Source: Clostridiales bacterium (GTDB taxonomy: Bacteria > Bacillota > Clostridia > Saccharofermentanales > Saccharofermentanaceae). From it: a DNA stretch of 64,000 nucleotides. A program made the translations under genes and the position numbers. The stretch spans positions 1 through 64,000 of the forward strand of contig JAFZWN010000042.1 in the NCBI GenBank assembly GCA_017617295.1, given 5' to 3'. The notes under the pieces are model-generated. The model was not told where the DNA came from. It made no database searches and worked only from the letters and a program-made list of their open reading frames with translations. Within the stretch, counting starts at the first letter, position 1, and every line of letters starts with the position of its first letter. Below, piece by piece: positions 1,747-55,700 of the stretch.

Positions 1747-3284
1747 AGATAAGGATCGGTCTTGATAACTATCTGGCGGTAAGCCTTATATATCTGATCC
1801 TGCCGGTTATCGTTCTGGGATTCGGGATGATGCGTATCCCCTGGGCGGTGATACTGGGAGCTGCTCTCTTGGTTACCTCTTCATACCTTGTATTTCCGGG
1901 GCGGAAGAAAAAGGAGAAAGGACTGCCTGACTCCGAGAGCATAGAGATAAGCCCCGTCCTGTTCTTTGTATCCGTTCCTGTGATCATAATCTGGGTCTAT
2001 TTTTCCGGCATAGGGGAATTCTCCTGGACCACGGCTGATCATCCCTACCGGGCGGCCGTACTTAATGATATGGTCGCTTACAAGTGGCCGGTCGTATTTG
2101 ATCTGTCAAAGCAGACCGGTGCCCTTAAGGGCATGACCGGCACCAGAGTCCTGGCATATTATTATGCTTTCTGGACCATACCTGCATTGATCGGGAAGAT
2201 GTTCGGTATATTTGCCGCCAGGGTCGCACTTCTGATATGGTCCGTTTTGGGAGCGTTTCTTATCCTGACGGGTCTGTTCTTCATACAGAAAAAGCCGTCA
2301 TTTACTGCTCTTGCCATGCTGGTCCTGTTCTCCACATTTGATTTTATCCCGATCACTGTCATGGATATCCTGAACCTGTATGACGGGTCATGGGAAGGGT
2401 GGAATACCCATCTGAACCTTCATTCGAATACCTTTCAGATGATGAATGTGTTTAATCAGTGTATCCCGGGATGGCTTGCCACCGTGCTTCTGCTTAAGAA
2501 ACGCGACTGCAGATGGGTCGGACTTACGGGAAGCATAGTATTCTGTTATTCCCCCTGGGGAGCGGTCGGGATGGTACCGTTTGCCCTGTATGTCTGGCTT
2601 TATTCCCGTGACGGTAAGATAAACCGCATAAAGGATATGCTGAGCCTGTGGAATTTCCTGCCGGCTCTTTCCGTTATCGCTTTTATGGCGCCTTTTTATT
2701 TGATGAACACATTGACGATGAAAGGATGGGCAGTGTCATTTTACAGTAGTCCCGGGGCTTTCATAATATCGGTAGTCCTGTATTTCATCTTTGAGACCGG
2801 GATATGGTTCCTTCTTCTCTGGCCGAGAAGAAGAGACCCCGGCAACATCCTTTATGACAGGAAGCTTTTCGTGAGCCTTTTGCCCGTATTTATCATACTG
2901 CCGTTCTATCTTGTCGGAGGTATAACGAATGATCTGCTCATGAGGGGATCTCTTGTCCCGCTCTTTGTCCTCTTCGTGATGTCTGTCCTTCGCCTTGACG
3001 AGACAGTTGCTCCTCTCGGGAAAGGCGGAAAACATATCGGGATCAAGGATGCGGGGATCCTCTTAACATATTTCATCGCCGCCCTGACTCCCATAATGCT
3101 CATCGTGGCGTCGATCGCGGGTTCTGCCGTAATGTATCGTGAAAACGGGTTCAATAACCCTGATACATACAGTCTGGGTTCATACGGTGATGTCCGCGAT
3201 GAGGAATTTGAACAGAATGTCCTGTCGGTATATCTTGCCGACGGTTATGAGGATTCGATATTTGCCAGATATATAGCCCGGTAA
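1743..3284 (+). CDS. Polytopic membrane protein, GT-C-like tandem paralog 2
   Basis: A 513-residue integral membrane protein, clearly homologous along its whole length to the preceding gene: GEFSWTTADH at residues 91-100, RAAVLNDMV, WPVVFDLSKQ, a SWEGWN motif in the middle, a NDLLMRG motif near the C-terminus, and the same acidic aromatic tail. It has about 12 hydrophobic segments. The start overlaps the upstream stop (ATGA), so the genes are translationally coupled. Its stop lies 9 bases from the convergent glycosyltransferase with no terminator hairpin between them. A GT-C-type transferase for a cell-surface glycan is the best guess and is supported only by topology and neighbourhood. Confidence 0.8.
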   Translation: MKIRIGLDNYLAVSLIYLILPVIVLGFGMMRIPWAVILGAALLVTSSYLVFPGRKKKEKGLPDSESIEISPVLFFVSVPVIIIWVYFSGIGEFSWTTADHPYRAAVLNDMVAYKWPVVFDLSKQTGALKGMTGTRVLAYYYAFWTIPALIGKMFGIFAARVALLIWSVLGAFLILTGLFFIQKKPSFTALAMLVLFSTFDFIPITVMDILNLYDGSWEGWNTHLNLHSNTFQMMNVFNQCIPGWLATVLLLKKRDCRWVGLTGSIVFCYSPWGAVGMVPFALYVWLYSRDGKINRIKDMLSLWNFLPALSVIAFMAPFYLMNTLTMKGWAVSFYSSPGAFIISVVLYFIFETGIWFLLLWPRRRDPGNILYDRKLFVSLLPVFIILPFYLVGGITNDLLMRGSLVPLFVLFVMSVLRLDETVAPLGKGGKHIGIKDAGILLTYFIAALTPIMLIVASIAGSAVMYRENGFNNPDTYSLGSYGDVRDEEFEQNVLSVYLADGYEDSIFARYIAR

Positions 3285-23218: not shown

Positions 23219-23327
23219 CAAACCCGCTCATTATCCTGTAAAATGCAGGGCATTGGAATATCCATTATTTGACAAAAATGCCGTTTCAGGAACATCGATT
23301 TTTGTGGTTTTTTTGTGGTTTTTATGC

Positions 23328-23407: not shown

Positions 23408-25375
23408 ATGAAGAAAACGGGATCAGGTAAAAATATTTCATCGCGTTCGGGAGTTAGGAGTTCCTACTCTCCTTCTTCGAGCGCATCATCATACCCGAGG
23501 AGCACTTCGAGCGCTCCCGTACACAGGACACGCACCACACATTCGTCAACAGCTTCATCATCTTCTTACGGAAGCAGGAAGACCTCTTCAAGGAAAAAGA
23601 AGAAAAAAAATATGGCGATACCCGCACTTTCAACAGTGCTCGTACTTGCTGTCCTTGGCGCAGGCGGATTTTACTATGCCCAGAGCAAAGGTTATTTTGA
23701 TCCCAAGTACGAAGTGACAAATGCCGACGGCACCGTAGTCTCGTTGAAGGAAGAAGAGATCAGGAGTGCCATCGCAGGTGACAACACTTTCCCCGAGGGC
23801 ATATGGATCGACGGTATGAGCGTTGCCGGCATGACAAAGGAAGCCGCTCTTCAGATGCTCGCCGCCAATCAGCCCGAAGCACCCCTTGAGATCGACATCA
23901 ATCTTCTTGTAGACGGGCAGACCCTTCCTGTCGACCTTTCTTCGCTCCCTCTCGAGAACAACCTTTCCGAGATCGTTGACGAGGCTTACGATTATCTGAG
24001 ACCTTCCGGCAATGAGGATCTTGAGACTGCGATCGCCATCTATAACGGCCGCCAGGCTCTCAGGGTCACTCCCATGCAGTTCAATACGGCATATACCCTT
24101 CATTCCGACGGTATTTCCGAGATAGTTCACGGCATGCTCGACGGTCTTGAGAGCGAGGCAGTCGATGCTTATGTTACCGGTTTTAATGTCGAGACGCTCA
24201 CATTTGAATATACCGAGTCGAGCAGAGGCTTTGATATCGATATAGATAAGGCAGCGGATGACGTTAAGGCTCTTCTCGATTCCGGAACATATGTGGGAAC
24301 GGTTAATGTTGACGCCGAGGTTACCGAGCCTTCCGTAAGCACGGAAGATCTCTCGACCGGTTTCGGCATGATCTCTTCCTCGTCCTCGACGACTTCCAAT
24401 GTTGAGAACAGGAACCATAATATAAGCATTACATGCGAGAAGTTGAACGGTCTGGTCCTCCAGAACGGCGAGACATTCTCGTTCAACGGATATATCGGAC
24501 AGAGGACTGTTGCCGCAGGGTACAGGGAAGCCGGTGTTATCGCCAACGGTACGACCGATGTGGGCTTAGGCGGCGGTATCTGCCAGGTAAGCTCCATGAT
24601 ATATCAGTCTGTCATCAAGGCTGATCTTTGTGTCGTAGAGAGACACTGGCACATGTGGCCTTCCTCATACTGCGATGCAGGAACGGATGCTTCCGTCGAC
24701 TGGCCCAGCCAGGACTTCTCGTTTACGAATGACAGCGGTTATCCCATAGCTCTCAATGCATACTGGGATCCTGCCACCAGCCAGATCACGATAGCTATAT
24801 ACGGACACCTTCTTCCCGACGGACAGTATATCGATTTCCAGGGAGAGGTCATAAGCAGAACACCCGCGAGCGGAGTCTCGTATGTTGCCGATCCCGAGAT
24901 GGCAACCGGAACGCGCGAATCCGTCAGAGGTTCTCACGACGGTGTTACCGCCGCATCATATCAGATCTGGTATGATGCCAACGGAAACGAGATCAACAGA
25001 GTCCAGCTTGCCAACACAGTTTATTCTCCCGTATCCGCACAGATAAGGGTCGGAGTCAGGAATCCCGACGGATCCCTTGCGACGCTCAATACGGCGACAG
25101 GCGAGATCACGGGCGGAGTTCCTTCGGATGTGGATTCCAGCGTTTCGGATCCTTCGGCTTCGGATTCTACGCCTTCCGACACACAGCCTTCCGATACGCA
25201 GCCTTCCGATACCGGTTCCACTTCTTCCGATACCCAGGCTACTTCTTCGGAGACACAGGCGACGGCAGAGACCCCTGCTTCCACGCCGGATACACAGTCA
25301 ACGGAGTCTTCGGCTCCCCAGTCTTCAGAGGATGCGCCTCCGCCTCCTCCCATCGATGATATTCCTTCAGTCTGA
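23408..25375 (+). CDS. Membrane-anchored VanW-domain cell-wall protein
   Basis: A 655-residue protein. A basic, Ser/Arg/Thr-rich cytoplasmic tail (1-68) leads to one membrane segment (69-91), giving an outside-facing body. Residues 110-330 look like peptidoglycan-binding domain 4 as in YoaR, and 335-475 are a VanW domain (ETFSFNGYIGQRT, GGGICQVSSMIYQS, HWHMWPSSYC). The final 100 residues are a Ser/Thr/Asp/Pro spacer with repeated PSDTQ units. The VanW domain is widespread in Gram-positive cell-wall proteins and its chemistry is not established. GGGAGA is the ribosome binding site. The DnaD gene starts 11 bases later, so they may share a transcript. Confidence 0.88.
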   Translation: MKKTGSGKNISSRSGVRSSYSPSSSASSYPRSTSSAPVHRTRTTHSSTASSSSYGSRKTSSRKKKKKNMAIPALSTVLVLAVLGAGGFYYAQSKGYFDPKYEVTNADGTVVSLKEEEIRSAIAGDNTFPEGIWIDGMSVAGMTKEAALQMLAANQPEAPLEIDINLLVDGQTLPVDLSSLPLENNLSEIVDEAYDYLRPSGNEDLETAIAIYNGRQALRVTPMQFNTAYTLHSDGISEIVHGMLDGLESEAVDAYVTGFNVETLTFEYTESSRGFDIDIDKAADDVKALLDSGTYVGTVNVDAEVTEPSVSTEDLSTGFGMISSSSSTTSNVENRNHNISITCEKLNGLVLQNGETFSFNGYIGQRTVAAGYREAGVIANGTTDVGLGGGICQVSSMIYQSVIKADLCVVERHWHMWPSSYCDAGTDASVDWPSQDFSFTNDSGYPIALNAYWDPATSQITIAIYGHLLPDGQYIDFQGEVISRTPASGVSYVADPEMATGTRESVRGSHDGVTAASYQIWYDANGNEINRVQLANTVYSPVSAQIRVGVRNPDGSLATLNTATGEITGGVPSDVDSSVSDPSASDSTPSDTQPSDTQPSDTGSTSSDTQATSSETQATAETPASTPDTQSTESSAPQSSEDAPPPPPIDDIPSV

Positions 25376-29048: not shown

Positions 29049-29246
29049 ATGGCTAAGTGTGAAATTTGTCAGAAGGATACATTTTTTGGCAGAAAGATAA
29101 GCATTACGCGTTCGCAGATTTCACGTCGTGCACTGACAACTCAGAAGCCTAACGTCAGAAACGTTAAGGTAGTTGTTGACGGCACCCCTAAGACAATGCA
29201 TGTTTGCACAAGATGTCTGCGTTCCGGTCTCGTAAAGAGAGCGTAA
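29049..29246 (+). CDS. rpmB: 50S ribosomal protein L28
   Basis: A 65-residue L28 of the zinc-ribbon type: Cys4/Cys7 (CEIC) and Cys53/Cys56 (CTRC), with the RSQISRRALTTQKPN core and basic C-terminus LVKRA. It is part of the large ribosomal subunit. A perfect AGGAGGTG ribosome binding site, its own promoter and a terminator make it a single-gene unit. The two CxxC pairs mark the zinc-binding form; many bacteria have a zinc-free version that replaces it under zinc limitation. Confidence 0.96.
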   Translation: MAKCEICQKDTFFGRKISITRSQISRRALTTQKPNVRNVKVVVDGTPKTMHVCTRCLRSGLVKRA

Positions 29247-29300: not shown

Positions 29301-29315
29301 GTTGTTTTTTGAGGA

Positions 29316-29437
29316 CCGGCTTATCCCAATGATAACAGATCCGTTCCGTCCGATGTCAAGGACTTCGTCGCGACGCGGTGCCCTTCGGGCATCCTTGACA
29401 TCCCGGACGGATCTGTAGGATGAGATATAACCCGGCC
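29316..29437. repeat. Large nested inverted repeat, possible structured RNA or cruciform
   Basis: Nested complementary segments fold this non-coding stretch into one long arm: CCGG 29316-29319 with 29432-29435; TTATCC 29321-29326 with GGATGA 29418-29423; CAGATCC 29336-29342 with 29409-29415; GTCCG 29348-29352 with 29404-29408; ATGTCAAGGA 29353-29362 with 29392-29401 (perfect). The top holds a palindrome CGTCGCGACG (29366-29375) and a hairpin TGCCC...GGGCA (29379-29391). No T-run follows, so it is not a second terminator. It may be a non-coding RNA, a mobile palindromic repeat or a DNA cruciform. Confidence 0.7.
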
Positions 29438-29456
29438 GATAAGAAAGACCTTGGAT

Positions 29457-29616
29457 CAGGCGGTATACGATTTATTTTCTGCGATTCCGTGGTGGTAATC
29501 ATTTATTTTTTTACGATTCCGTGGTGGTATACAATTATTTTTTTGAGTTTTTGTGGTGGTAATCACTTTAGTTTTCTCTTTTCCGTGGTTTTTATCATCC
29601 TATAAGACATAAAACC
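29457..29616. repeat. Five degenerate 32-bp tandem repeats
   Basis: The motif GTGGTGGTA begins at 29489, 29521 and 29553; a variant GTGGTTTTTATCA begins at 29585 and a more diverged CAGGCGGTATACGA at 29457. The period is exactly 32 bases throughout, with no spacers. Each unit starts G-rich and continues T-rich, often ending in TTCC. The array stops two bases before the -35 box of the nuclease-like gene, so it could be a set of protein binding sites placed on one face of the helix (three turns). With the inverted repeat, this accounts for the 446-base stretch between rpmB and that gene. Confidence 0.75.
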
Positions 29617-29618
29617 GG

Positions 29619-29647
29619 TTGAAATCATGATCCTTCGGGTTCATAAT
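29619..29647 (+). promoter_or_regulatory. Promoter of the PD-(D/E)XK-like gene
   Basis: TTGAAA (29619-29624) and CATAAT (29642-29647) are 17 bases apart. The -35 box begins immediately after the 32-bp repeat array. Confidence 0.6.
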
Positions 29648-29692
29648 ATAGAAAAATTTGTTCGTTTACAAAAAATGCAGGAGGGATTCAGT

Positions 29693-30469
29693 ATGGTTGA
29701 ACTGGCAAGGCAGAGACTTAAGTATCTGGATAATATAAGCAGTATCCTTCAAGATGCTGTAAGAACATCTCCTGCGGGCAGTCTGGTACTACGGAACACA
29801 AAACTAAACGGTCTGCAACTCTATATGAGAAAGAACGGAACTGAGATATACATACCCTTCTCCGAGGCCGGACCTCTGGCCACCAAGCGGTACCATATCT
29901 ATGTGCTGAAACTGGTGGATCAGGAGATCGGGGCTTTGGAGAAGTATCTGAAGGCGATGCCAAAGATCCGGTTTGAAGATGCACTCGCGCAAGTGCCGGA
30001 TCCCATAAAGCCGCTGATATCACCCGCCATAATGACTGATGAGGAATATGCCCGGAGGTGGCAGGCTGAGATCTATACCGGAAAAGGATTTGATCCGAAG
30101 GATACTACCGAATTCTACACGCGGAAGGGTGAGCGCGTGAGGTCAAAGTCGGAAGTGCTTATCGCCAATGCGCTCTATGATCTGGGTATCCCGTATAAAT
30201 ATGAGTGTCCCCTTGTGCTCTATGACGGGAGACTCATAATCCACCCTGACTTTACCATTCTCAATATGAGGACAAGGGAAGTGTATTATCTGGAACATGC
30301 CGGGAGGATAGACAAGGAGTCTTATGCCAAGTCTTTCGTTTTAAGGCTTAAGTATTATACGGATAACGGGATCTTCTTCGGCGACAGGCTGCTATTTACC
30401 TTTGAATCGGATGATATGCCGCTTTCCACAAAGGACCTGGATGCGTTCCTGAGACATTATTTCCTGTAA
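29693..30469 (+). CDS. PD-(D/E)XK nuclease-like protein of a clostridial orphan family
   Basis: A 258-residue protein with a helical N-terminal half (LARQRLKYLDNISS; a small basic beta region GLQLYMRKNGTEIYIP; helices to about 125). The C-terminal half carries YTRKGERVRSKSEVLIANAL, GIPYKYECPL, HPDFTIL and VYYLEHAGRID. RSKSE, PDF and E-x-H fit the acidic positions of a PD-(D/E)XK fold nuclease, with His where Lys is usual. I know related proteins in Clostridia that read YWEHFGMMD at the last motif; their function is not established. AGGAGG eight bases before 29693 sets the start. It has its own promoter and terminator. Confidence 0.7.
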   Translation: MVELARQRLKYLDNISSILQDAVRTSPAGSLVLRNTKLNGLQLYMRKNGTEIYIPFSEAGPLATKRYHIYVLKLVDQEIGALEKYLKAMPKIRFEDALAQVPDPIKPLISPAIMTDEEYARRWQAEIYTGKGFDPKDTTEFYTRKGERVRSKSEVLIANALYDLGIPYKYECPLVLYDGRLIIHPDFTILNMRTREVYYLEHAGRIDKESYAKSFVLRLKYYTDNGIFFGDRLLFTFESDDMPLSTKDLDAFLRHYFL

Positions 30470-30473
30470 ACAA

Positions 30474-30503
30474 AAAGGCTGCCGGATAGAAACGGCAGCC
30501 TTT
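30474..30503. terminator. Bidirectional terminator between the nuclease-like gene and serS
   Basis: A perfect 11-pair stem (AAAGGCTGCCG, 30474-30484, with CGGCAGCCTTT, 30493-30503) around an eight-base loop, with A-rich and T-rich flanks, sits between two convergent genes. Confidence 0.88.
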
Positions 30504-30523: not shown

Positions 30524-31822
30524 TTACTTCGCGGGTACTTCGATGACGCTCTTGCCGCCCATGTACATGCGGAGAGGCTCGGGGATCCTGACGGAGCCAT
30601 CCTCGTTCAGGTTGTTCTCGAGGAATGCGATGAGCATTCTCGGCGGAGCGACGACCGTGTTGTTGAGAGTGTGGGCGAGATAGTTACCCTTGCTCTTGTC
30701 CTCGGGCTTGATCCTGATACCGAGCCTTCTTGCCTGGGCATCTCCCAAGTTCGAGCACGAACCAACTTCAAAATACTTCTTCTGTCTGGGAGACCATGCC
30801 TCTACGTCGCAGGACTTGACCTTGAGATCTGCTAGGTCGCCGGAGCAGCACTCGAGGGTGCGCACGGGGATATCGAGGCTCCTGAAGAAGTCTACAGAAT
30901 TCTGCCAGAGCCTGTCATACCATGCCTTACTGTCTTCAGGCTTACAGACGACGATCATCTCCTGCTTCTCGAACTGGTGGATACGGTATACGCCTCTCTC
31001 CTCGATGCCGTGAGCACCGACTTCCTTACGGAAGCAGGGGGAATAGCTCGTAAGTGTCTGGGGAAGCTGGGATTCGTCGGTAAGGGTATTGATGAACTTA
31101 CCGATCATGGAATGCTCGGATGTGCCGATGAGGTAGAGATCTTCGCCCTCGATCTTATACATCATGTTCTCCATCTCGGAAAAGCTCATGACGCCGGTTA
31201 CTACGCTGCTTCTGATCATGAACGGAGGGATATAGTATGTGAATCCGCGGTCGATCATGAAGTCGCGCGCATATGAGAGGATGGCGGAGTGGAGCCTGGC
31301 GATGTCGCCTCTTAAGTAATAGAAGCCGTTGCCGCTCGTGTCTCTTGCGGGATCGAGCTCGATACCGTTCAGGTTCTCCATGATATCGACATGATAAGGG
31401 ATCTCGAAAGAAGGTACGAGAGGCTCGCCGAACTTCTCTATCTCGACATTCTCGGAATCGTCCTTGCCTATCGGAACGGAAGGATCGATGATATTGGGGA
31501 TCACTCTCATGATCTTGTCGATCTTCTCTTCGTATTCAGTCTCTTTGACCGAAAGGGCGGCAAGCTCGTCTGCCATGGCAGCAACCTCAGCCTTCTTCTG
31601 CTCGGCCTCGTCCTTCTTGCCCTGTCCCATGCAGTAACCGATCTCCTTAGAGATCTTGTTCCTCTGGCTTCTCAGATATTCCGCGCGGGTCTTGGCCTCT
31701 CTGTATTCCTTATCGAGTGTCAGGACTTCGTCCACCAGGGGGAGTTTCTCGTCCTGAAATTTTTTCTTTATATTCTCCTTAACGAGTTCAGGGTCATTCC
31801 TTAAAAGCTTAATGTCGATCAT
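30524..31822 (-). CDS. serS: Seryl-tRNA synthetase
   Basis: A 432-residue class II synthetase. The N-terminal coiled-coil arm (about 27-105) binds tRNA-Ser. Motif 2 is PCFRKEVGAHGIEERG; TSEHSMIG and VGSCSNLGDAQARR form the serine site. Motif 3 reads LNNTVVAPPRMLIAFLEN rather than the textbook LNGSGLAVGRTLVAILEN. I recall the same variant from other clostridial SerS proteins, so it marks a subgroup and not a defect. GGAGG lies eight bases before the ATG. Only 42 bases separate it from the upstream gene on the same strand, so there is no room for a T-box leader. Confidence 0.96.
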   Translation of the reverse strand: MIDIKLLRNDPELVKENIKKKFQDEKLPLVDEVLTLDKEYREAKTRAEYLRSQRNKISKEIGYCMGQGKKDEAEQKKAEVAAMADELAALSVKETEYEEKIDKIMRVIPNIIDPSVPIGKDDSENVEIEKFGEPLVPSFEIPYHVDIMENLNGIELDPARDTSGNGFYYLRGDIARLHSAILSYARDFMIDRGFTYYIPPFMIRSSVVTGVMSFSEMENMMYKIEGEDLYLIGTSEHSMIGKFINTLTDESQLPQTLTSYSPCFRKEVGAHGIEERGVYRIHQFEKQEMIVVCKPEDSKAWYDRLWQNSVDFFRSLDIPVRTLECCSGDLADLKVKSCDVEAWSPRQKKYFEVGSCSNLGDAQARRLGIRIKPEDKSKGNYLAHTLNNTVVAPPRMLIAFLENNLNEDGSVRIPEPLRMYMGGKSVIEVPAK

Positions 31823-52793: not shown

Positions 52794-55700
52794 TTATCTG
52801 ATAATACCGTAACTTGCACAGATCCTTGTAAACTCGACAGACTGTGCAAATCCATTGAAGACCTCTTCTCTTGATATACCGGAATCAAGCTGTCCTACCC
52901 ACGCATCATAGCCTGCCTGATCCGGTTCTCTTCCCATAAAGGTCCTGTAGAGTCTTGCCACATATTCGCCATTATCGACATTCTGTCCAGTGAACTCTTC
53001 GCTAAAGAAGAATCCTCTAGCTGCTCCGGTTCCAGTATCACGCTGATTTGCCAGCTGATGTGCCCAGGCCATAAGTCCTCCCTGATCCGCATTCCTGTTG
53101 AGACAGGTCGTGTAAAGTCTTGTCGCAAAATCGATAGTTGCCTGATTCGGTTCGACTTCTATGGATGGAGTTCCGGTTCCGCCTGAAGGAATGCCATAGG
53201 AAAGGCAGAGATTTGCCCATTCAGTGGAATTAATGAATCCTTCAATGACATTCTGTCTGTTTTCACCACCGTCGAGAACACCTACCCAGGCAGCCAGTCC
53301 GCCTTCATCGGCTTCTCTTCCGAAGAAAGTTCGATACAGAGTCTGAACAAATTCAGTGTTGGAGCAATTCTTGTTAAGGAATTCATCACTATAGAGGAAT
53401 CCTCTTGCCAGATCGGCGCCTGTATTTTGTCCCGATGTTACAGTATCGACCCACTGCTGCTGACCGACAGGATCAGATCTTCTTCCAAGAGCTACGGTAT
53501 AAAGCCTTTCAACGAAGTCACTGACACCGTTCGTGTTACTATCTTCAGGAGTAGGAACAACCGTGACATCGGCAGGAGTCGTCGGAGTCGGTTCAGGAGT
53601 TGTTGTTGAATCTGCAGCAGGGTTTTGTACGGGTGTTGGAGTCGTTGTAGAATCCGTAGCAGGGGGTTGTGCAGGCGTTGGAGTCGTTGTAGAGTCCGCA
53701 ACAGGGTTTTGTGTAGGAACAGGAGTTATAAAATCCATATCCGATTCAGGCGTTACGGTTACATTAACACAATTATCCGTAACGCGGACTCTGCATTTCC
53801 ATTCCGGGATGTTGCTAAAGGTGTTATTTGAGATTGTTGCAGTATTGACGTTGTCAAGATACATACCATGCCCGTTCGTATTTGAAATACTGTTTCCATT
53901 GACAGTCAGGTTTCTGCATCCTGAGAAGCATATTCCAATTGAACCGCTATCGGAAATGGTATTATTTTCAAATCGTCCTGTTGAATCTACTGCATTGATT
54001 TGATGACTTGAAGTATTCCCGAAATTATTGTTTGTAACAGAAACATTTGAATTCTCATAGATTTGCAGAGCGTTTACACCTCCGCTGATTGTGTTTCCGT
54101 CTATGGTTGCAGTTGATGTTCCCTTAATGGTAATACCTGCTTCAGTATAGTTGCCGATGATATTGTTACTGATGTTGACGTTAGATCCGGATACTCCTAT
54201 AGAAGATCTATAGGGAGCGGATGTATTATTCATAGTATTATCAGATATTGTAACTCCATTGGAATCACTAACGTATACCAAGTATTTGGATGATTTCATG
54301 AAGGTATTGCCGGATATAGATACATCGTGGCCGGACATATTGTTGACATAAATGCAGTTATTGCCGTCAGTACTTAAATCGTTGCCCGATACCATTATGT
54401 CATCATCACCTCTATCAATCAGTATGCACGCTGTGATACTGTTGTCTGTTGTATTTATGGTATTGTCACGTATGGTAGCTCCATGAGAATCTAAAAGATG
54501 AATGTAACCACCTTCAAGAGTACAGTTGGAGATCACGGCAGCTGACTGGTTTATCATGATATTTTTATTGAATGTTTCATGTCCGACCGTAACTGATGCG
54601 TTCTCGACATATAACTCATTATTTCCATTTGTTGCATATGCATTTTGATGTTCTTCGGAAATATTATTGATAACAATCCCGTCGGAATCTTTAATGTATA
54701 TGCACGTTGTATTGGATCCGGATAATATGTTGGAGTCAATAGCTATGTTTGATGAAGACTCGGTAATCATAATGTTAGAATGGATCTTATCGTCAGATTT
54801 TATAGCATTACCGGTAATTGTAATCCCGGAAGATGTTTGTAGAAATATTGGAGAAAAAACATTAACATAGTCGGTATATGAATCCGGCGTGACCGTACCT
54901 GTTATTGTATTTCCGATGATAAGAGAGTTATGAGCATCATTAAAATCACAGAAACTTCCAACATTGGTTGCAGTGTTGTTTTTAATGATCATATTGTTGA
55001 AGCTGTATGCTGAGATGCACGTTGCACGGATATTATTGAATGTATTGTTTTCGACTATGATCTTATCTGCGTATCCGATAGCATAATTTTGGTCATTAGG
55101 AGAAGAAGAGATCGTATGGTGTGTTCCTAGTCCGCGGAAAACATTGTCAAATGTACAGTTTCTAACCGTAATATTATTACAGGGAGTTCCGTCCGCTGCC
55201 GGTCCGCCGCCCTCGCCAATCTCATTCATAAAATCCATATGAATGGCTTCAATCGGACAATGACGAGCAATCTTATCTTCTTCACTAAGACCTGAGTCAT
55301 AAAAACGTCTGTCATCTCCCGTGAAGACCTGAGCATCCTTGAACGTACAATTATCGATTAGTACTTTATTACTTCCGCTGATGTTTATCATATGGTTTAC
55401 GGCATCAGTTATAGTAATGTTGTTAAAGATAATGTTATTGGCGTGAGTAATAACGAGTATATTAGCAAAATCATGATCTGCTAAGTTTCTGTTTGCATTC
55501 CATGTTCCTCCCTCTATAAACACATTATGAATGGCATCATACCCGCCAACGGCGATATTGTTTGCATTCGCAGAACCATCTCCGGACATGAGCATATCGC
55601 CGCCGGGCCAATTATCCGATCGTATTATTTCTGTGCCTTCTTCTAATATCAGACGTGTGTTAGAGTAGATATAAAGGCTTCCGTTAGTAGTATATACTCC

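Follow-up and report, generated by a model that had tools for sequence, protein, structure and literature searches.

What connects a nuclease-like gene with the non-coding repeats that stand in front of it? The question is raised by positions 29,316 to 30,503 of a 64,000-nucleotide stretch of contig JAFZWN010000042.1 (assembly GCA_017617295.1) from a Clostridiales bacterium of the Saccharofermentanaceae; we refer to this whole stretch as the window. Here a palindromic hairpin element, an array of short repeats and a gene for a protein of 258 amino acids follow each other between the genes rpmB and serS. A preliminary description of the sequence had singled out this group as a candidate module, linked by proximity only, and had compared its layout to guide-RNA, defence and transposition-related systems. 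We find that nuclease and array belong together: arrays are located upstream of the gene in most homologues. Of the three layouts the evidence favours the transposition-related one. The explanation towards which we lean, with some reserve, is a partnership like that of REPIN repeats and RAYT transposases, built on an unrelated nuclease fold, in which nuclease and array together form an autonomous repeat element.

Private repeat arrays accompany the nuclease genes

Relatives of the window gene were found at 11 other places in the same genome, every one a singleton between unrelated genes; the gene is thus isolated at its own locus, as had been described, but not genome-wide. A further 80 relatives come from Lachnospiraceae, other Clostridia, Fibrobacter, Treponema and one Eggerthellales bin, and the family is present in many gut and rumen bacteria. 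Within the genus the number of main-family copies per genome ranges from 0 (e.g. in genome G001, which is 100% complete) to 8.

The closest 8 of the 11 relatives each have an upstream array, and each motif is different (GTGGTGGTA, TTTCGTTGTA, GGGGGTAA, TTTGGNATAC, TTCTACTAAA, TTTGCACCA, ATATACGG and GTGTGCCA). For the 88 loci with enough upstream sequence we compared 400 bp upstream of the gene with dinucleotide shuffles. An 8-mer was present at least three times in 66 of these loci, and repeated 8-mers reached p ≤ 5% in 57. A strict detector reported 19 arrays within 500 bp upstream of the gene (37.6 kb), 8 within 500 bp downstream (39.0 kb) and 7 in the remaining ~310 kb, so that the density of strict arrays next to the gene exceeds that in the rest of these loci more than 20-fold. 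A motif search, carried out without shuffle control, detected arrays in 92 of 118 loci. Their motifs are 8–12 bp long, and most of these arrays alternate strictly in orientation. In the analysis of periods 369 of 479 steps between neighboring sites switch strand. The orientation class recurs within a protein subfamily: loci L001–L003 have direct 32-bp arrays, L004–L008 inverted pairs. Arrays are located downstream of the gene in L050 and L104 and on both sides in L009 and L255. In the main family the same motif was found downstream of the gene in 0 of 90 loci.

Motif similarity grows with protein similarity (Mantel p = 0.0005, r = 0.18). The mean motif similarity is 0.34 for pairs with less than 25% identity in the N-terminal domain, 0.41 at 35–45% and 0.45 at 45–60%. 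Clear cases of co-variation are L060, L069 and L099, which have the motif CCCGACTA in common. A group of relatives (L043, L047, L052, L056, L071, L179 and others) has a separate pair of boxes, AGTCTCAA and TTGAGACT, 50–150 bp in front of the gene; this pair, which follows the array and precedes the start codon, is perhaps an operator.

Array periods follow the DNA helix

Within alternating arrays two gaps take turns, and the sum of both gaps is constant in each array. Between loci this sum is limited to 31–32, 41–42, 51–53, 62–64, 73–74, 84 and 103–104 bp (55 regular arrays), a ladder of 3, 4, 5, 6, 7, 8 and 10 turns of B-DNA. With its direct 32-bp steps the window array is a three-turn case. 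The periods of sites on the same strand are multiples of 10.5 bp, with R = 0.72 for exact 8-mers in 90 upstream regions and R = 0.85 for the 55 regular arrays. Control windows of the same loci (n = 169) gave R = 0.05 at 10.5 bp and showed the codon period of 3 instead. Motif and spacer sequences differ between loci despite their kinship.

Since the same-strand periods follow the helical repeat, the arrays are probably read as double-stranded DNA and not as guide RNA. Assembly of a protein along one face of the duplex explains the phasing, which a guide RNA does not. The guide-RNA layout considered in the preliminary description is therefore not borne out, both because the spacing of the array follows the helix and because the putative promoter of the gene is located downstream of the array.

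Arrays without a nuclease gene are dispersed in the genome

Many arrays of this genome are nuclease-free, and we call these orphans. Orphans with the window motif are located on contigs C8, C72 and C14, with the L006 motif on C7, and with the L007 motif on C14, C89 (two) and C156. Three of the L007-motif orphans are clear copies of one array-hairpin element in different surroundings. Long arrays of the single motif GTATACCA adjoin hairpins at C144, C97, C142 and C31 (L140–L145). Dispersed copies share their spacers, with drift.

Locus L009, which belongs to a second subfamily, has a 103-bp element with TA at both ends on either side of the gene; dispersed elsewhere in the genome are about 12 further copies, each exactly 103 bp long. 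The motif of this orphan family is constrained: motif columns are 4.1% off consensus and other columns 26.5%, a contrast that exceeds every circular shift of the mask. For the same locus we found co-occurrence of motif and nuclease. We counted the L009 motif pair (TATCACAA) 23 times in the window genome, and none of 58 other genomes of the genus contains it more than once. These 58 genomes also lack a close orthologue of L009, their best match having 36% identity. Locus L255, from the same subfamily in another species, has palindromic elements on both sides with a different motif.

Orphans are located between convergent genes in 9 of 21 cases, compared to 38 of 280 gaps, and in divergent gaps in 2 of 21. 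The density of arrays in five genomes is 26, 14, 15, 11 and 5 per Mb; that it follows the number of nucleases is suggestive only.

Insertion between rpmB and serS

The genus keeps the order SH3 protein, rpmB, serS and next gene. In at least seven relatives the gap between rpmB and serS is 107–165 bp long and free of genes, while it measures 1278 bp in the window genome. Because relatives keep both genes with such a short gap, this comparison identifies the unit as an insertion, and the expectation that it comes and goes between rpmB and serS was confirmed. In L155 (genome G019, ~2816–3241) the gap holds an array of another motif (TATACTAAA / TTTAGTATAC) without nuclease, and in two other relatives it holds unrelated genes, so the gap evidently tolerates insertions. 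A stretch of inverted repeats, AAATGCTAAAAAAGTG...TTTTTTAGCA, which is unlike the phased arrays, occupies the gap in L158 (G011).

We also considered phage or plasmid cargo, which is unsupported. None of 7 plasmid matches covers 80% of the protein, one full-length match is located in an unannotated 'phage' fragment of 4.2 kb, and viral contigs give distant matches only.

A two-domain protein with a nuclease-like core

The window protein consists of an N-terminal helix / beta-hairpin / helix domain (about residues 1–125) and a C-terminal domain of the PD-(D/E)XK nuclease type (about residues 126–258). It is covered by no Pfam, PHROG or NCBIfam family, and no Pfam family was found for any consistent share of the 79 aligned members, in agreement with its description as an uncharacterised family. 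That the protein is nuclease-like is backed by matches of its C-terminal half and by the predicted fold. This half matches a phage Holliday-junction-resolvase family (E = 5e-5) and the C-terminus of the PADLOC candidate PDC-S68 (E = 1e-23); in all 79 members the match falls on the last 110 residues of PDC-S68 (E = 1e-23 to 4e-30). Viral DUF2726/DUF559-like models reach E = 1e-4.

A confident AlphaFold2 model from the 79 natural sequences (predicted local distance difference test 96, predicted template modeling score 0.70) has a C-terminal PD-(D/E)XK-like core. In view of the latter score the two domains may move relative to each other. E154, P185-D186, E201-H202 and G204 are invariant across the 79 sequences, and catalysis is therefore presumably kept. 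In the predicted model E154, P185-D186 and E201 are located on a helix and two strands, as expected for catalytic acidic residues on the core of the PD-(D/E)XK superfamily, the third position reading E-H-x-G and not E-x-K.

The nearest solved structures for residues 122–258 are TnsA, Bax1, Vsr, VRR-NUC and Can2, all weak matches (Z = 6–8), the TnsA row with Z = 8.3 being level with unrelated rows; a Foldseek search of the PDB gave no match at E ≤ 0.001. For the N-terminal domain structural rows were generic long helices only (prefoldin, SMC coiled coils). This domain diverges faster than the C-terminal one, which would fit a specificity domain, although motif tracking cannot separate the two domains. 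On plasmids of proteobacteria and others (H1–H7), genes for AAA ATPases or helicases also end in the C-terminal nuclease domain, with 36–38% identity.

A nuclease and its repeats as a possible mobile element

According to the partnership that we favour, the nuclease would be sequence-specific and its recognition site would be the motif of the adjacent array. The protein would bind the array through its N-terminal domain as a row of dimers, several subunits lining up along the same face of the duplex; binding as dimers is most likely because the motifs step by whole helical turns and usually alternate in orientation. The nuclease would probably nick or cut at or beside the arrays, and repair or strand transfer would then place copies of the array, sometimes together with the gene, in intergenic DNA and chiefly where two genes converge. 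Nuclease and array would in this way behave as an autonomous element and nuclease-free arrays as its non-autonomous copies, comparable to RAYT transposases and REP/REPIN repeats. We infer from the genomic patterns that the nuclease binds the array and cuts there, and that this cutting drives dispersal. More tentatively, the units may represent a previously undescribed class of mobile DNA, in which a PD-(D/E)XK nuclease, whose DNA-binding domain changes fast, spreads copies of its own half-sites through bacterial chromosomes in the form of helically phased arrays.

If this holds, REP-like repeat populations would have more than one origin, with nuclease chemistries that are unrelated, and the intergenic repeats of gut and rumen Clostridia that otherwise lack an explanation would have a cause. 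With a private recognition word for each paralogue the family would be a natural library of programmable-looking site-specific nucleases whose targets are written beside them. Should the nuclease read the adjacent array, hundreds of genomes would hold such pairs of an enzyme and its written target; the recognition code of a new domain would be directly testable from sequence, and compact site-specific nucleases could result. The quantised spacing also makes a sharp and simple prediction on the protein-DNA assembly.

Several observations weigh against the proposed partnership. The motif of the main family is located on one side of the gene only, unlike in a two-ended transposon, which is unsupported for this family (0 of 90 loci with the motif downstream). 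The Mantel correlation is weak, and tracking of the motif by the N-terminal domain is not separable from tracking by the C-terminal one. Array density tracks the number of nucleases only roughly in the five genomes. Arrays of the GTATACCA motif were found without matching nuclease in an assembly that is 92% complete. With no more than 67–77% DNA identity around orphans, relatives are too divergent for empty sites to be delimited by DNA comparison, and neither an insertion boundary nor a target-site duplication was fixed. Finally, related loci are phylogenetically non-independent and nominal Rayleigh p values are therefore too small, overstating the significance of the phasing.

Alternatively the array could be an operator that is bound by the protein upstream of its promoter for autoregulation, with orphans as degenerate or decoy sites or as sites of other control. 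The location of most arrays just upstream of the promoter (19 against 8 downstream within 500 bp) agrees with this, and helical phasing with alternating orientation would suit cooperative protein binding. Yet orphans favour convergent gaps and avoid divergent promoter regions, some arrays stand downstream of the gene or on both sides of it, and 5 to 10 copies of a private motif per paralogue exceed what autoregulation needs. We regard an operator function as unlikely; together with a conflict or defence device it is nevertheless the chief competitor of the partnership.

A role in defence or addiction appears improbable. The array would then be a sink keeping a harmful nuclease inactive, which loss or degradation of host DNA sets free. 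All 79 members closely resemble the C-terminus of PDC-S68 in their C-terminal domain, and private motifs with a patchy distribution are also typical of conflict systems. On the other hand PDC-S68 has about 1200 residues and the match is confined to its last 110, the window locus shows no partner gene, antitoxin gene or defence island, and a sink does not require genome-wide dispersal of its motif.

We give little credence to the idea that the arrays are miniature repeats moved by another transposase, beside which nuclease genes merely insert or persist. The TA at both ends of the 103-bp family, as in many miniature inverted-repeat transposable elements, and a hairpin family that in this genome travels together with arrays of several motifs would be expected of such passengers. 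Every paralogue has its own motif, however, the orientation class recurs within protein subfamilies, motif and nuclease co-occur, and strict arrays are concentrated beside the gene.

A guide-RNA system, in which the array would be transcribed and its spacers would guide the nuclease, as in TIGR-Tas or CRISPR, has next to no probability: alternating repeats of 8–12 nucleotides beside a nuclease gene do resemble TIGR arrays (PMC12045711), but the periods vary from locus to locus in multiples of the helical repeat, spacers are common to dispersed copies, a Nop-domain match is missing and a likely promoter separates array and gene. A HEARO-like reading was rejected along with it.

The protein may also combine two of the functions mobility, autoregulation and conflict or defence.

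Comparison with known systems

RAYTs are thought to spread REPs (PMC2817692, PMC3116915). Like RAYT-REPIN systems, the units described here combine a chromosomal nuclease gene with repeats that are private to it, regularly spaced, alternating in orientation and dispersed as cognate repeats in intergenic DNA (for several motifs); repeats are abundant only where the cognate gene is present (for one motif), and motif and protein change together. They differ in that the nuclease is PD-(D/E)XK-like, whereas RAYTs are HUH/Y1 tyrosine enzymes; for our protein no match to an HUH or Y1 tyrosine transposase family was found, and its predicted fold is different. In addition, arrays are phased to the DNA helix, copies number about 3–16 compared to more than 100 for REPs, and the array of the main family is located on one side only. 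A gene flanked by two repeats was seen in 0 of 90 main-family loci and in the second subfamily only (L009, L255). Because of the different fold and the lack of flanking on both sides in the main family, the units are RAYT-REPIN-like in genome layout without being members of that group.

In TIGR-Tas systems, too, a nuclease gene is preceded or followed by short repeats that alternate and are separated by variable spacers, the array units comprising about 36 nucleotides with spacers of 9 (up to 12) nucleotides (PMC12045711). Here, by contrast, the spacing is helical with 31–104 bp per period, dispersed copies have spacers in common, and the protein has neither a Nop domain nor RuvC/HNH; Pfam Nop was absent from the 25 most frequent families of the 79 members, and the predicted fold differs. 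CRISPR-Cas systems have direct repeats of 25–36 nucleotides with unique spacers in place of alternating motifs of 8–12 bp, and no cas-like neighbor was seen at the window locus. The unit is neither TIGR-Tas nor CRISPR.

Tn7-type ends carry ordered multiple protein-binding sites beside the nuclease of a mobile element. The arrays recall these sites for TnsA/TnsB, and TnsA is the nearest, if weak, structural match of the C-terminal domain. The window locus differs in having no transposase, AAA protein or target selector next to the gene, and the main family has no second end. PDC-S68 shares the homologous C-terminal nuclease domain, but it is a far longer protein with other domains, whereas the family described here has about 260 residues and an array. 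In the literature searched, which left most subscription journals outside its scope, we found no description of nuclease-linked phased repeats or of a nuclease with an array in Lachnospiraceae, and none under related domain names.

The hairpin family

The palindromic hairpin of the window (29313–29443, not assigned to a strand) has a folding z-score of −4.4 against dinucleotide shuffles. It is built from outer CCGGCTTAT/ATAAGCCGG-like ends, a middle part CAGATCCG/CGGATCTG and inner GTCAAGG/CCTTGAC arms. An Rfam search of window and locus gave no family at gathering score, matches at E ≤ 1 being sub-threshold and at chance level. The hairpin belongs to a separate repeat family found at about 18 places in this genome. 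Among 16 copies inspected, 14 adjoin arrays; 10 of those hairpins had been located because they resemble that of the window or lie near nucleases, and of the hairpins left out of model building 4 of 6 are directly beside arrays. The adjoining arrays have several motifs and are located upstream or downstream of nucleases.

In the preliminary description hairpin and array stood together as upstream elements, of which only the array recurs in most homologues. Of 80 outside homologues, 6 had a hairpin with the GTCAAGG/CCTTGAC core nearby, and these amount essentially to two independent loci. We therefore rejected the hairpin as an obligatory part of the unit; on this comparison it is a lineage-specific repeat that often neighbors arrays. 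Its role may be that of a companion repeat, of a preferred landing site or, in this lineage, of one end of the element.

Some places in the genome combine several of these components. On contig C89 (19790–20560; L138:3790–4560) a ATATACGG array, a GCAACAT array and a hairpin are located side by side, and at C63:14389 (L294) a hairpin stands between two arrays of different motif. At L117:18980–19200 (C7) an array of AGGTTGTA is apparently situated within a hairpin element, between the CAGATCCG and GGATCTG halves, and adjoins a GGTGCAAA array.

Organization of the window locus and further repeats

Structured element, repeat array and nuclease-like gene, as reported for this locus, are all present according to folding, repeat finding and open reading frame analysis, and the described layout is accurate except for the start codon, which moves to 29693. 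The array extends over five 32-bp steps on the forward strand (29456–29599). Its steps start at 29456, 29488, 29520, 29552 and 29584, the first and last being degenerate, and consist of CGTGGTGGTA followed by TAC or ATCA by turns. Its Tandem Repeats Finder score of 126 is the second highest within the window.

A promoter-like sequence TTGAAA-N17-CATAAT on the forward strand (29619–29647, a match to the consensus only, at 10 of 12 positions) is located between array and gene, so that the gene's own mRNA probably does not include the array. The gene (29693–30469, forward strand, including the stop codon) most likely begins with the ATG preceded by AGGAGGG, as a longer open reading frame from 29627 would start upstream of the likely −10 box. 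It is followed by a two-way terminator-like stem (30474–30503, no strand assigned), which is common to the gene and to the convergent serS. Of the promoter and terminator that the gene had been said to own, a candidate for each was thus found, the terminator being shared. The flanking genes rpmB (29049–29246, forward strand) and serS (30524–31822, reverse strand), whose order is conserved in relatives, are outside the unit.

Two further repeats were noticed in the window. An 11-bp direct repeat, TTTTTGTGGTT, at 23299–23323 upstream of a gene at 23408 recalls the GTGGT word of the array and has an unrelated spacing. The highest Tandem Repeats Finder score of the window belongs to a 42-bp tandem repeat of 2.9 copies at 53596–53717, which is probably coding.
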